64,000 nucleotides of DNA from Ensifer sp. BR816 (GTDB taxonomy: Bacteria; Pseudomonadota; Alphaproteobacteria; Rhizobiales; Rhizobiaceae): the NCBI RefSeq assembly GCF_000378985.1, contig NZ_KB905370.1, forward strand, positions 4,834,799-4,898,798. Direction: 5' to 3'. The position numbers and the translations under genes were made by a program. This document shows, piece by piece, positions 14,014 through 17,551 of the stretch; the stretch's first letter is position 1; each line of letters starts with the position of its first letter. Under the pieces are notes generated by a model. That model was not told the origin of the DNA. It did no database searches and saw only the letters and a list, made by a program, of their open reading frames with translations.

Positions 14014-14610
14014 TCAGAGGCTGCGAATGATGCGCCGCAGCGCTTCGTCGCGTGCGCCGAGCATCAGGACGTTCTTGAGCGCCACCTTCGGGTCCTGCGT
14101 CCGGAAGATCAGACCGTTACCCCGAACATTGCGATCGACGACCATCCGCCCCTCTTCGGTGCCGGGTTGAATGGCGACGGCGAAATACATGCGCGAGTAG
14201 CTTGTCTGTATACGTTCGAAGAAGTGCGTCTCGTCGCCGAGGTCGGAGAAGAAGTTGGCAAAATAAAACGCCCAGGTGACGTCTCGTGATCGCGCGAGAT
14301 GGGTCCGCGCAGCGGTCACATGGCAATAGCCGAGATGGGGACTGTCGGCGAGTGTCCGGTGGAAGATCATCCTCGGAAACTGGATGGAGGCATGGAAGCC
14401 GTTGATCCGCCTATGGGTCGTCTCTCCCGCCGTCTGTAATCTCTGTCCGGTTCTCTCTGCCACTTCCTCATGCGTCATGTAGCGGCGCTGCTCGGGCAAC
14501 CACGGGCGGCGTCGGTCAATTCGCCCGGTGCGCAGGAACTCCGTGTGGACCGCCGTTTTCGGCGTCGCCGCCTGCGCCTTGCCGGCGTCGTAATATCTGA
14601 GCTTTGCCAT
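14014..14610 (-). CDS. Conserved hypothetical protein, DUF6656-like
   Basis: A 198-residue protein without signal peptide or membrane segments, starting MAKLRYYDAGKAQ. The ATG at 14610 has AGAGG five bases upstream. A start 14 codons earlier lacks a comparable site. It is rich in Arg and His, with a conserved-looking core including HLGYCHVTAARTHLARSRD and FFERIQTSYSRMYFAVAI. I associate it loosely with a rhizobial family annotated DUF6656; no function is known. It is transcribed away from the riboswitch-controlled Rieske operon, separated by a 590-bp intergenic region. Confidence 0.7.
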   Translation of the reverse strand: MAKLRYYDAGKAQAATPKTAVHTEFLRTGRIDRRRPWLPEQRRYMTHEEVAERTGQRLQTAGETTHRRINGFHASIQFPRMIFHRTLADSPHLGYCHVTAARTHLARSRDVTWAFYFANFFSDLGDETHFFERIQTSYSRMYFAVAIQPGTEEGRMVVDRNVRGNGLIFRTQDPKVALKNVLMLGARDEALRRIIRSL

Positions 14611-14917
14611 CGACCTCTGCGTCACCTGTCGCTGAACGGATTGCACCGCCAACGAACGCTAAATCACTATGGTTAACGGAGTATTTCGGGCGCCGTGCAT
14701 CGCTTTATGTCGCAAAATGGCCCGTGATCTTCGCGGCCGGGATGCCATTCCGAAAAAAGCGCGACTTTCCGGAAAATGCATCTATCACATTGTTTATTAT
14801 AGAAAATGCCACAAGACTTCCAACGCGCCAGCGGCGAAAATCTCTGTCGTCTTTCTGGAACGGAATGTCGCTCACCGGCAATTGCCGAGCCCATCTGGCC
14901 GCTTAGATTCGGAGTGC

Positions 14918-15092
14918 TCAAGGTGCCGCTTCTTCGCAGGGAGGAGCGGAGAATTGGGAAGCCGGTCAAACTCCGGCGCTGCCCCCGCAACGGTGGTGGA
15001 GCGAAAGCCGCGGCAAAAAGCCACTGGACATTGTCCGGGAAGGCGCCGGGCAAGGCCTTCGGGCCGCTCCAGAGCCCGGAAACCAGCCTTGA
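14918..15092 (+). promoter_or_regulatory. Cobalamin (vitamin B12) riboswitch
   Basis: The conserved B12-box core is plain: GCCGGTCAAACTCCGGCGCT followed by GCCCCCGCAACGGT (about 14960-14995), preceded by the GGGAA turn. The closing helix P1 can form between TCAAGG (14918-14923) and CCTTGA (15087-15092). AGAGCCCGGAAACCAGCC just before P1 resembles the usual 3' consensus. It lies on the plus strand in the leader of the Rieske oxygenase gene, ending 111 bp before its start codon. A short hairpin CCTGT/ACAGG (about 15175-15191) just upstream of the ribosome binding site could be part of the expression platform. Adenosylcobalamin binding would normally lower expression. Confidence 0.93.
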
Positions 15093-15203
15093 AGCGAAAC
15101 GACCGTAACTGGTTGCGGCGGGCAGCCGGATCGGAGCCATGGCGCACGGCATCTCTCCGGCGCGGTTCCTGTCCTGCCTGTCCGAAACAGGGCTAACGAG
15201 GAC

Positions 15204-16454
15204 ATGGGCATGGACATTCAGAACGATATGCTGCGCAAGCTGAAGACGCGTCGTGAGGGCTACAGTCTCGACCGGGCTTTCTATACCGACGCGGACTATT
15301 ACCGTCAGGACCTGGAGCATATCTGGTACAAGGATTGGCTCTTCGTCGGCCACGACTGCGAAATCCCGCGGTCCGGCAATTACTTCACGCTGCAGGTCGG
15401 CGACTATCCGATCGTCATCGTGCGCGACCGCCAGGGTTCTATCCGGGCTCTGCACAATTCGTGCCGCCACCGCGGCTCGCGCGTTTGTACGCAGCACAAA
15501 GGCTCCGCGGCCAAGCTCGTTTGTCCCTATCACCAGTGGACCTACGAACTCGACGGCAGGCTGCTCTTCGCTCGGCAGATGCCGGAGGGCTTCGATCCGT
15601 CTCAGCACAGCCTGAAGCCGGTCAATTGCGAAACGGTCGGCGGCTACATCTTCATCAGCCTCGCCGATGAGCCGATGGACTTCCAGCCGTTCCGCGAGAC
15701 TGTCACCGGCTATCTCGCGCCGCATCGGCTCGGCGAAACCAAGGTCGCCTATGAAAGCACGATCGTCGAGAAGGGTAATTGGAAGCTCGTCTGGGAGAAC
15801 AACCGCGAGTGCTACCACTGTGCCGCCAACCATCCGGAACTCTGCCGCACCTATCCGGAGGCGCCGACCGTGACGGGCGTCCAGGGCGCGATGGACGACC
15901 CGGAAATCGGTGCCCATTGGGAAAGATGCGAGGTGGCGGGACTGCCGAGCGCCTTCAGGATCGGCTCGACCGGCCAATTCCGCATGACGAGAATGCCGCT
16001 GATCAACGGCGCCGAGAGCTATACGATGTCCGGCGACAAGGCCGTCCGCAAACCGCTCTCTGCCGGCATAAGCGCGAGCGGCATCGGCACGCTGCTGCTG
16101 TTCCACTATCCGACGACCTGGAACCACATCCTCGGCGACCATGCGATCACCTTCCGAGTGCTGCCGCTCGGGCCGGAACTGACGCAGGTCACGACCAAAT
16201 GGCTCGTCAACAAGGATGCGGTCGAGGGGGTCGACTATACGCTCGAGGACCTGACGCATGTCTGGACCGAGACGAACGACCAGGACCGACAGATCGTCGA
16301 GGAGAATGCTTTCGGCATCCGGTCGCCCGCCTATGAGCCGGGCCCCTATTCGGCCGAACACGAGGGCGGGGTCATGCAGTTCGTCGACTGGTATTCGCGC
16401 TACATGCAGGACCGCCTGCCCGGCGGCGCCGCGCCTCTCTCACGGGTGGCATGA
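15204..16454 (+). CDS. Rieske non-heme iron monooxygenase alpha subunit, glycine betaine demethylase (GbcA) type
   Basis: A 416-residue ring-hydroxylating-type oxygenase. The Rieske [2Fe-2S] ligands are in CRHRGSRVC and CPYHQWTY (about residues 88-115). The mononuclear iron site follows around NRECYHCAANHPEL (about 200-213), with a C-terminal aspartate expected as third ligand. Length and motifs match GbcA-like enzymes that oxidatively demethylate betaines to dimethylglycine plus formaldehyde. Stachydrine/carnitine-type relatives are similar, so the substrate is not certain. An in-frame ATG at 15210 is better spaced from GAGG (15198-15201) and may be the true start. The gene overlaps the reductase gene by 4 bp and sits behind a cobalamin riboswitch, an unusual control for this family. 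Confidence 0.9.
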   Translation: MGMDIQNDMLRKLKTRREGYSLDRAFYTDADYYRQDLEHIWYKDWLFVGHDCEIPRSGNYFTLQVGDYPIVIVRDRQGSIRALHNSCRHRGSRVCTQHKGSAAKLVCPYHQWTYELDGRLLFARQMPEGFDPSQHSLKPVNCETVGGYIFISLADEPMDFQPFRETVTGYLAPHRLGETKVAYESTIVEKGNWKLVWENNRECYHCAANHPELCRTYPEAPTVTGVQGAMDDPEIGAHWERCEVAGLPSAFRIGSTGQFRMTRMPLINGAESYTMSGDKAVRKPLSAGISASGIGTLLLFHYPTTWNHILGDHAITFRVLPLGPELTQVTTKWLVNKDAVEGVDYTLEDLTHVWTETNDQDRQIVEENAFGIRSPAYEPGPYSAEHEGGVMQFVDWYSRYMQDRLPGGAAPLSRVA

Positions 16455-17551
16455 CCATGGAAATGGCCCGCTCCTTCCACCATTTCGACGAGCTTCATCC
16501 CTGGAAAGATCGCCAGTATCTGCTTGAATGCGTCTCCGCGGTCGCCGAAACCGCGGATGTGATGACCTTCACCTTCCGGTCCGACAGGCCGGCCTGGTTC
16601 CGCTACCTGCCCGGGCAGTTCGTGACCCTCGAGCTCCCCGTCGGGGAGGAGCCGGTCATGCGGACCTATACGCTGTCCTCGTCGCCGTCGCGCCCGCTTT
16701 CGATTGCGGTCACCGTAAAGGCGCAGTCGAACAGTATCGGCACGCGCTGGATGTTCGACAATCTGAAGCCGGGCATGACACTGAAGGCGCTCGGGCCGCT
16801 CGGCGATTTCAGCTTCGTTCGCCATCCGGGCGAAAAATACCTGTTCGTCTCGGCCGGCTCCGGCATCACGCCGATGATGTCGATGACCCGCTGGATGGCG
16901 GATTGCGCGCCGGCAACGGATGTCACTTTCATCTCCTGCGCCCGGCAGCCGGAGGATCTTCTGTTTAAGCCGGAGCTTGAGATCCTCGCGCGCCAGATGC
17001 CACAGCTCAATCTCGGCTTTCTGGTGGAAGGCCACGAGGCACGACACGGCTGGCACGGCCTGCGCGGCCGCATCGACGCGACGAAGCTGCCGCTGCTCGC
17101 GCCGGATTTTCTGGAGCGAACGGTCTTCTGTTGCGGTCCCGAGCCCTTCATGCGGGGCGTCCGGGAGATGCTGGAGGGGGCCGGTTTCGACATGGCCCGC
17201 TACCACCAGGAAAGCTTCCAGCCGGCCGCCGCTCCGGCGGCAGAGGAACTCGCCATTCGTGCCGGACCGGTCGCCGGGGCTCAAGCCGAGGCGGCGCGGG
17301 TAACCTTCACCATGAGCGGCAAGGAAGTCTCGACCGTCCCCGGCCAGACGATCCTGCAGACGGCACGCGCGAACGGCGTCAGGATCGGTGCTGCCTGCGA
17401 GGGGGGCATCTGCGGCACGTGTCGCGTGCTGAAGATCGCCGGCGATGTCGAGATGAACCACAATGGCGGCATTCTCGATGACGAAATCGACGAGGGCTAT
17501 ATCCTCGCCTGCTGCTCGCGGCCGCTCGGCGACGTTCAGATCGAGGCGTAG
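16451..17551 (+). CDS. FAD/2Fe-2S reductase partner of the Rieske oxygenase (GbcB type)
   Basis: The 366-residue hybrid protein transfers electrons from NAD(P)H to the Rieske oxygenase. It has an FAD-binding domain (RTYTLSSSPS, about residue 74), an NAD-binding domain (FVSAGSGITPMMSMTRWM near 133; FCCGPEPFMRGVREML near 222) and a C-terminal plant-type ferredoxin. The cluster ligands are CEGGICGTC (about 316-324) plus a distal cysteine in YILACCSRP. This order is that of GbcB and related one-protein reductases. The ATG lies inside the stop of the oxygenase gene (ATGA), indicating coupled translation. Both genes should respond to the upstream riboswitch. Confidence 0.92.
   Translation: MTMEMARSFHHFDELHPWKDRQYLLECVSAVAETADVMTFTFRSDRPAWFRYLPGQFVTLELPVGEEPVMRTYTLSSSPSRPLSIAVTVKAQSNSIGTRWMFDNLKPGMTLKALGPLGDFSFVRHPGEKYLFVSAGSGITPMMSMTRWMADCAPATDVTFISCARQPEDLLFKPELEILARQMPQLNLGFLVEGHEARHGWHGLRGRIDATKLPLLAPDFLERTVFCCGPEPFMRGVREMLEGAGFDMARYHQESFQPAAAPAAEELAIRAGPVAGAQAEAARVTFTMSGKEVSTVPGQTILQTARANGVRIGAACEGGICGTCRVLKIAGDVEMNHNGGILDDEIDEGYILACCSRPLGDVQIEA

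Follow-up and report, generated by a model that had tools for sequence, protein, structure and literature searches.

A cobalamin riboswitch before a betaine-demethylase-type Rieske oxygenase operon accompanies MttB-family methyltransferases across genomes

Results

The 64-kb stretch of Ensifer sp. BR816 DNA analysed here (the window) holds a two-gene operon for a Rieske oxygenase and a flavin/iron-sulphur reductase, led by a cobalamin riboswitch (Table 1). A preliminary description had seen this riboswitch in the letters alone, and the covariance-model scan confirms that it is real: the match to RF00174 covers the full model (1-189) with no end missing, lies far above the gathering score of 31.5 bits, is the only Rfam match above threshold in the window, and returns with the same 105 bits when the whole genome is scanned. 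The preliminary description had the end of the operon right and began the riboswitch 14 bases too late.

Table 1. Features of the operon, its leader and its divergent neighbour
Feature	Position	Strand	Evidence
DUF6656 gene, divergent neighbour outside the operon	14014-14652	-	Pfam 303.8 bits; synteny
Cobalamin riboswitch aptamer RF00174	14904-15105	+	cmscan 105 bits, E 3.1e-25
Hairpin 3' of the aptamer, loop CGGCGGGC (15116-15123)	15109-15129	+	predicted fold
Predicted helix, TGTCCT (15170-15175) with AGGACA (15199-15204)	15170-15204	+	minimum free energy fold
GbcA/Stc2-family Rieske oxygenase, 416 aa	15204-16454	+	Pfam, NCBIfam, PDB 3n0q and 3vca, tree
GbcB-like flavin/2Fe-2S reductase, 366 aa	16451-17551	+	Pfam, NCBIfam

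The loop CGGNGGGC (15116-15123) is predicted to pair with the GCCCCCG loop of the aptamer, and its motif is kept in all 56 leaders compared (the window and 55 relatives, L031 excluded). We take the two to be L5-L13 kissing partners, following the P13/L13 naming, so that the hairpin is probably the kissing partner of the aptamer. Further downstream, the helix of the minimum free energy fold masks most of the Shine-Dalgarno GAGGA (15198-15202), and probably represents a translational off-state. With the loop locked in silico, the predicted accessibility of the Shine-Dalgarno fell in 12 of the 54 leaders and rose in 5, under a crude rule by which two of the 56 leaders have no Shine-Dalgarno.

The oxygenase carries the Rieske and Ring_hydroxyl_A domains of Pfam, and the reductase, whose gene overlaps the 3' end of the first by 4 bases, FAD_binding_6, NAD_binding_1 and Fer2. 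Translation of the oxygenase probably starts at ATG 15210, because, of the 80 best among 591 relatives, 56 match it only from its third residue onwards. Its domains and full-length similarity place it, by sequence, in the GbcA/Stc2 family of quaternary-amine demethylases in the broad sense, in a clade of its own: it is 56% identical to Stc2 (PDB 3vca, which we take to be the stachydrine, i.e., proline betaine, demethylase of Sinorhizobium) and 45-49% identical to the canonical GbcA clade, whose 17 rows form one branch (100/100) that excludes it. The likeness to GbcA and GbcB proposed earlier thus holds at the level of the family, but both proteins miss the NCBIfam cut-offs, with 520.5 bits against 670 for GbcA (NF058607; 503.4 and 510.6 bits for relatives L064 and L096) and 391.5 against 500 for GbcB. 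The oxygenase probably demethylates betaine-like compounds; since it misses the GbcA cut-off, glycine betaine itself is a putative substrate. The window neighbours identified by Pfam (threonylcarbamoyl-AMP synthase, FAD-linked oxidase, DUF6656, glycosyl hydrolase 25 and CorA) include no betaine genes.

The preliminary description had looked to the MttB family for a corrinoid-dependent alternative, and six genes of this family are indeed present in the genome. One of them, a candidate mtgB, clusters with candidate mtgC and mtgD and with the corrinoid activator RACo, near cobalamin genes, so that the same genome offers a candidate B12-dependent counterpart, as in the metE kind of regulation. Further B12 riboswitches lead each of two metE copies, the formaldehyde dehydrogenase gene fdhA, and bluB. 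A role of the operon in the synthesis of the lower ligand of B12 was discounted, the protein being clearly of the quaternary-amine family and bluB having a riboswitch of its own. The genome also has a separate Stc2-like copy, 85% identical to 3vca, at which no B12 riboswitch was found; by eye, this copy adjoins a LysR-type gene.

Six MttB genes leave room for a swap involving another quaternary amine (proline betaine, carnitine or a choline-type compound) and a different enzyme of the MttB family. The clade of the oxygenase is closer to Stc2 than to canonical GbcA, and the Stc2-like copy without riboswitch points the same way. Even so, the only MttB of six genomes that bear the riboswitch (one more such genome, G345, lies outside this comparison) is a relative of the candidate mtgB at 66-92% identity, and in four of them mtgC adjoins it; a system of this mtgB-mtgC type has been shown to act on glycine betaine in Ruegeria (PMC12478193). 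We therefore regard another substrate as rather unlikely, while keeping it in mind.

If the operon stands in for a B12-dependent route, its riboswitch should be kept only where that route exists, and the distribution observed comes very close to this. Among 111 genomes with a related oxygenase gene (this one included, and G565 counted although its oxygenase groups with Stc2), 78 have a riboswitch at the gene and 33 have none; the MttB/MtgB family occurs in 77 of the former and 3 of the latter. The two samples behind these figures, which share two genomes (G100 and G268, taken as those of L087 and L090), agree: in the first, drawn from the best 80 of 591 relatives and with L032 outside the MttB count, 54 of the 55 riboswitch-bearing genomes have MttB, against 1 of the 24 others, and in a sample across the order and class the figures are 23 of 23 and 2 of 10, respectively. 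MttB occurs without a riboswitch at the gene in L042, G249 and G565, the last of which, grouping with Stc2, may fall outside the relevant gene set, whilst the single riboswitch match without MttB (L031) has a damaged aptamer core. For canonical GbcA, a motif scan of 1.5 kb flanks found no riboswitch at any of 17 NCBI-qualified GbcA loci, a model scan gave nothing there over 14.4 bits (E 0.017), and MttB occurs in one of the 17 genomes. The idea of an isozyme swap, offered initially as a hypothesis, thus gains comparative support, the riboswitch tracking MttB nearly one to one across 110 other genomes.

Such a pattern could in principle be inherited without any functional link, had one main loss in a single Rhizobium/Agrobacterium branch removed both riboswitch and mtgB. 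This branch does hold 24 of the 30 rows in which the two are missing, and a strict test on pairs, run on the oxygenase tree, falls short of 0.05 (median p 0.06 to 0.125), although 3.8 to 4.8 of its 5 pairs on well-supported branches go in the expected direction and none is opposed. On the other hand, both are also missing in Agrobacterium vitis with G455, in Xaviernesmea oryzae (beside L031), and in G198, G771 and G759 (the last on a long, uncertain branch), and a likelihood test of correlated evolution favours dependence (ratio 22.8, 4 degrees of freedom, p 1.4e-4), with a fitted rate of riboswitch loss of 16.5 without MttB and 0.22 with it, on the oxygenase tree, which served for both tests in place of a species tree. 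Together with the similar pattern on fdhA described below, this makes shared ancestry alone a very improbable explanation.

Neither did the negative genomes of the first set lose their B12 riboswitches at large: all 24 carry at least two matches elsewhere, and that explanation was discarded. The DUF6656 gene marks the same chromosomal site whether or not a relative has the riboswitch, and the gap to this gene is about 230 bases shorter without the riboswitch (median 395 over 24 loci) than with it (624 over 23 loci). These observations also bear on the thought that low B12 induces betaine breakdown in order to furnish B12 synthesis with methyl groups and with the glycine that aminolevulinate requires. 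The available parts of PMC5948670 and of the review PMC8123684 mention, respectively, betaine in an S. meliloti B12 fermentation medium and stimulation of the ALA precursor by betaine and choline. Yet the switch is missing at this gene in lineages keeping their other B12 riboswitches, its absence tracks MttB, and a riboswitch on formaldehyde dehydrogenase suits disposal rather than supply. We hold precursor supply to be quite unlikely, and the pattern can be explained without invoking any stimulation of B12 production by betaine.

Where MttB is gone, what is left of the riboswitch looks decayed. At 60 near-invariant core positions, columns picked from the intact sequences themselves, the window and 55 relatives show 0-2 differences, against 12-14 in three matches from genomes without MttB. 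A leave-one-out version omitting a metE riboswitch, in which 70 columns count, gives 12 and 10 for the two metE copies of this genome; because it is less clean, we give more weight to 66 positions set by the Rfam consensus, where the same three matches have 18, 20 and 24 mismatches and the other 67 at most 15. The leaders of fdhA are similar: with Rfam, an intact riboswitch is found in three of five genomes with MttB, and a riboswitch in two of 20 without it, damaged in both. Scanning with model R1 adds fainter signals upstream of fdhA in four genomes without MttB (24.8, 17.1, 13.9 and 12.5 bits; E 6e-6 to 0.07), of which only the first is likely, since the scan gives up to 14.4 bits at loci of canonical GbcA as well. 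That the aptamer regulates little, or serves an unrelated need such as oxygen or iron, would agree with the absence of a clean switch in the folding, but is hardly credible given a core so well kept in 56 leaders and so damaged in the three MttB-less matches.

Discussion

The results of this work suggest, with a probability of about 0.82, that the operon serves as a B12-independent backup to a B12-dependent route for demethylating betaine-type quaternary amines. Given ample adenosylcobalamin, the leader RNA would bind it and form the kissing loop, hiding the Shine-Dalgarno, so that oxygenase and reductase would not be made; betaine would then be demethylated by MtgB-MtgC-MtgD, which requires a corrinoid, with tetrahydrofolate receiving the methyl group. 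Under B12 scarcity, the leader would open and the oxygenase replace the Mtg route on a substrate common to both, using O2 and reduced nicotinamide. This oxidative demethylation would release formaldehyde, which in some genomes, this one included, the riboswitch-led formaldehyde dehydrogenase would clear. The riboswitches, including those on fdhA and metE, the genes, the candidate mtg cluster and the co-occurrence are direct results; ligand, direction of control, substrate and the use of both routes in vivo are inferred.

With less assurance, though still as the probable wider picture, B12 may act as a switch of one-carbon chemistry in these bacteria: in its presence, corrinoid transfer of the methyl groups of betaine-type osmolytes to folate, and in its absence an O2-using, formaldehyde-producing mode made up of riboswitch-led Rieske demethylase, formaldehyde dehydrogenase and metE. 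Loss of the corrinoid route would let the riboswitches decay, so that the oxidative route would no longer be under their control.

If this is correct, a catabolic, formaldehyde-producing reaction joins the functions that bacteria duplicate against B12 shortage, fdhA, of known chemistry, becomes tied to a B12-sensing leader, and these genomes keep a natural record of riboswitch decay following the loss of the enzyme that justified it. One would then also expect B12-making rhizobia to keep a betaine route silent when cultured in the laboratory with ample B12, a point relevant to the second S. meliloti betaine pathway discussed in PMC12478193.

Comparison with known systems

A cobalamin riboswitch 5' of S. 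meliloti SMc00982 is listed from Rfam (PMC2245857, PMC2573895) and the gene is named a likely dioxygenase (PMC2848018), with no function proposed for the switch in the available text of these three papers. Its divergent gene arrangement is that of the window operon, and SMc00982 is presumably the orthologue of our oxygenase. A literature search covering parts of mostly non-subscription papers returned no proposal of a B12-switched betaine-demethylase swap.

GbcAB of Pseudomonas and Chromohalobacter has the same two-protein make-up and gives the best NCBIfam matches, but the window oxygenase stands apart from it in identity and clade and the operon lies below both cut-offs. Stc2 belongs to the same family, and its close copy in this genome, unlike the window operon, lacks a B12 riboswitch. 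MtgBCD, a corrinoid-dependent methyltransferase for glycine betaine in aerobic bacteria (PMC12478193), is the proposed counterpart, with candidates for all three proteins in this genome; it is unrelated to the oxygenase in protein family, and needs a corrinoid and no O2. A parallel in logic is metE/metH, where a B12 riboswitch likewise precedes a B12-free enzyme with a B12-dependent counterpart in the same genome, a kind described in the available parts of PMC2211319 and PMC3766115. Unlike metE, the operon would have a catabolic function, the demethylation of quaternary amines, and the two routes differ in by-product (formaldehyde as opposed to methyl-tetrahydrofolate) and in their need for O2. 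The betaine demethylase swap would thus be a new enzyme pair within an already known regulatory kind.

The operon and its leader

The covariance-model scan bears out the cobalamin riboswitch that the preliminary description had placed in the leader of a Rieske operon, as the sole Rfam match over gathering within the 64-kb window (see table). The adjoining motif is kept in 56 of 56 leaders (the window's and 55 relatives, the damaged L031 being left out), and the Shine-Dalgarno sequence pairs with TGTCCT as a helix in the predicted fold. When the loop is locked in folding, predicted Shine-Dalgarno accessibility goes down in 12 of 54 leaders and up in five. Translation of the oxygenase probably starts at ATG 15210, since with 56 of the best 80 relatives the alignment does not begin before residue 3.

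Features of the operon, and riboswitch-led genes and mtg cluster of the Ensifer sp. BR816 genome (riboswitch-led genes assigned by position; names given by eye are marked)
Feature	Position	Strand	Remarks
Cobalamin riboswitch RF00174	14904-15105	+	105 bits, E 3.1e-25 (Rfam)
Motif CGGNGGGC	immediately 3′ of aptamer		complementary to the aptamer's GCCCCCG
Rieske oxygenase gene	ORF 15204-16454	+	starts ~100 bases after riboswitch
Flavin/2Fe-2S reductase gene	16451-17551	+	overlaps oxygenase gene
Two metE copies	C2:403675-403885, C2:160816-161022 (riboswitches)		riboswitch-led, one per copy, same replicon
Two transporter operons with binding protein			riboswitch-led; by eye
bluB			riboswitch-led
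cbtA			riboswitch-led
The window's operon			riboswitch-led
Glutathione-independent formaldehyde dehydrogenase (fdhA)			riboswitch-led; TIGR02819, 715.7 bits, cut-off 637
cobP, then cobW, cobN			weak ninth riboswitch (28.5 bits); cobW, cobN by eye
mtgB (MttB family)	mtg cluster		779.5 bits
Corrinoid protein, mtgC candidate	mtg cluster		top NCBIfam match MtgC, 209.8 bits, below cut-off 370
Betaine-homocysteine methyltransferase	mtg cluster		582.9 bits, cut-off 338
MTHFR	mtg cluster
Pterin-binding protein, mtgD candidate	mtg cluster
RACo-type corrinoid activator	mtg cluster

The operon had been called GbcA/GbcB-like; the best NCBIfam matches of its two proteins are GbcA (520.5 bits) and GbcB (391.5 bits), both below the cut-offs (670 and 500). 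The closest PDB chains to the oxygenase are 3n0q and 3vca, the latter of which we take to be the stachydrine demethylase Stc2. In a tree of 39 proteins the 17 NCBI-qualified GbcA form a single clade (100/100) with the window protein outside; it is 45-49% identical to these and 56% to Stc2. Judged by its sequence, the window protein is a member of the quaternary-amine demethylase family outside both the GbcA and Stc2 clades. Domain annotation names no betaine genes among the operon's neighbours within the window. The one other close oxygenase copy of this genome (L011) is Stc2-like, 85% identical to 3vca, and adjoins a LysR-type gene (named by eye); neither motif scan nor our riboswitch model R1 found a riboswitch there.

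Several side observations concern the relatives' loci. Among the loci L019-L098 a GbcB homologue (E up to 1e-10) accompanies the oxygenase in 56/56 with the riboswitch vs 10/24 without, and from the latter count the reductase seems to have been lost or relocated for many Rhizobium oxygenase copies. Four loci (L154, L158, L162, L163) have a second cobalamin riboswitch upstream of the oxygenase, on the opposite strand, and two loci have an extra one downstream, no more than 1 kb past the reductase gene (L056:5769-5975, +; L040:5766-5974, -); in L056 a metH-like gene (by eye) stands directly upstream of the oxygenase. A genome of the same class, G1022, has a riboswitch core (L230:1201-1316, 84.4 bits) upstream of an oxygenase whose place in the tree is on the Stc2 side, so riboswitch and oxygenase may have become linked on more than one occasion.

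Co-occurrence of riboswitch and MttB genes

The riboswitch of an oxygenase that backs up B12-dependent demethylation is expected to be kept only where that route is present. Among the best 80 of 591 oxygenase relatives (69-90% identical, flanks up to 3 kb) the riboswitch lies upstream of the oxygenase in 56 (17, 14, 13 and 12 per batch of 20), and in the 79 genomes of this first set where the B12-dependent MttB methyltransferases were sought they are present in 54 of 55 with the riboswitch vs 1 of 24 without. A second sample, drawn evenly from the order (397 genomes) and the class (387 genomes) and having two genomes in common with the first, gave 33 genomes with an oxygenase match besides the window's; MttB occurs in all 23 with the riboswitch upstream vs two of the ten lacking it. 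With both samples and the window's own genome combined, the figures are 77/78 vs 3/33, and the comparative expectation of the isozyme swap hypothesized in the preliminary description is thus borne out.

The exceptions are L031, with a riboswitch match and no MttB, and L042, G249 and G565, with MttB and no riboswitch at the oxygenase. L042 is a true exception, since its MttB is itself an mtgB relative adjoining mtgC; the oxygenase of G565 groups with Stc2. Where the riboswitch goes with a single MttB (six genomes examined), that MttB is 66-92% identical to the own-genome mtgB, and mtgC stands beside it in four.

In each of the 24 first-set genomes without the switch at the oxygenase, two or more cobalamin riboswitches are matched elsewhere (E up to 0.001), at least one of them over the cut-off; a match over the cut-off occurs in 50 of the 50 genomes searched. 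The same chromosomal site, recognised in 47 of the 80 loci by the divergent DUF6656 neighbour, has a gap of 593-1033 bases to the oxygenase with the switch (median 624; 23 loci, L031 included) vs 323-482 bases in 23 of the 24 loci without it (median of the 24, 395), the odd one being L073, whose DUF6656 neighbour is elsewhere. At the 17 canonical GbcA loci the motif scan finds no riboswitch (R1 at most 14.4 bits), and one of the 17 genomes has MttB.

On a tree of 113 oxygenases there are at least nine riboswitch changes and six MttB changes. A Pagel-type likelihood test, counting L031 as having the riboswitch, gave a ratio of 22.8 (p 1.4e-4 on 4 degrees of freedom); the rate of riboswitch loss was fitted at 16.5 without MttB vs 0.22 with it. 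The independent-pairs test, stricter and confined to well-supported branches, put 3.8 to 4.8 of 5 pairs in the expected direction and had no opposing pair, with a median p between 0.0625 and 0.125; the ranges depend on which trait and which state of L031 are chosen. In view of both tests a dependence is likely, resting on about six events and on a gene tree rather than a species tree.

Damaged riboswitches and fdhA

Three riboswitch matches occur in MttB-less genomes, one upstream of the oxygenase (L031) and two upstream of fdhA (L119, L168). In that order they differ at 14, 13 and 12 of 60 near-invariant core positions vs 0-2 in 62 others (the intact sequences from which these columns were chosen), and mismatch 24, 20 and 18 of 66 Rfam-consensus positions, more than any other of the 70 sequences compared, among which 15 (own bluB and cobP riboswitches) follows. 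Each of the three has an altered CACT in the B12 box, which is unaltered throughout the 62. Most changes are common to L119 and L168, whose damage may therefore be one event.

An FdhA sharing 92% identity or more with the own-genome protein (E up to 1e-100) is present in 25 of 50 genomes, namely 20/24 without MttB vs 5/26 with it, and the upstream region was examined in all 25. The riboswitch is intact in three of the five MttB-bearing genomes (84.7-104.9 bits) and in the own genome, none being found upstream of fdhA in L024 and L034; in the MttB-less genomes it is found in two of 20, damaged each time (48.7 and 49.7 bits). A pattern like that of the oxygenase is in this way seen at a second gene, and the product of this gene would consume the formaldehyde expected as the oxygenase's by-product. 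Faint riboswitch-like traces in four further MttB-less genomes (L169 24.8, L122 17.1, L124 13.9, L121 12.5 bits; sense strand, ~300 bases upstream of fdhA), the weaker ones at the noise level of the scan, are possibly later stages of decay.

B12 riboswitches and the mtg cluster of the own genome

The genome (6.95 Mb, 3 contigs) has eight cobalamin riboswitches over the cut-off and a weaker ninth. The one transporter binding protein, of the two, that was run against NCBIfam passed no cut-off. The mtg cluster lies ~15 kb from the cobP riboswitch, and its mtgC candidate passes for Pfam B12-binding domains. The MttB search suggested earlier yielded six genes of the family in this genome, one of which, on the second contig, is ~95% identical to mtgB.

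Discussion

The best explanation of these patterns, to which we give about four chances in five, is that the oxygenase would serve as a B12-free backup when B12 is low, with corrinoid-dependent demethylation being used when it is available. The identity of the oxygenase's substrate is the weakest link of this reading.

According to the parts available of PMC12478193, Ruegeria requires both MtgC and MtgD to demethylate glycine betaine, S. meliloti mtgBCDE occurs together with the cobalamin operon, and the betaine-homocysteine methyltransferase gene equates with mtgE; riboswitches are named there once, in a reference title. The riboswitch itself is probably catalogued already, as PMC2245857 and PMC2573895 place, in the portions available, a B12 riboswitch upstream of SMc00982, a likely dioxygenase according to the accessible text of PMC2848018. 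A proposal of this swap was not found in the literature searched, as far as its text was available. Isozymes under B12-riboswitch control are described in PMC3766115 and PMC2211319, whose main texts, in the parts available, name no betaine, Rieske or dioxygenase; the proposed swap is a new enzyme pair within a known regulatory kind.
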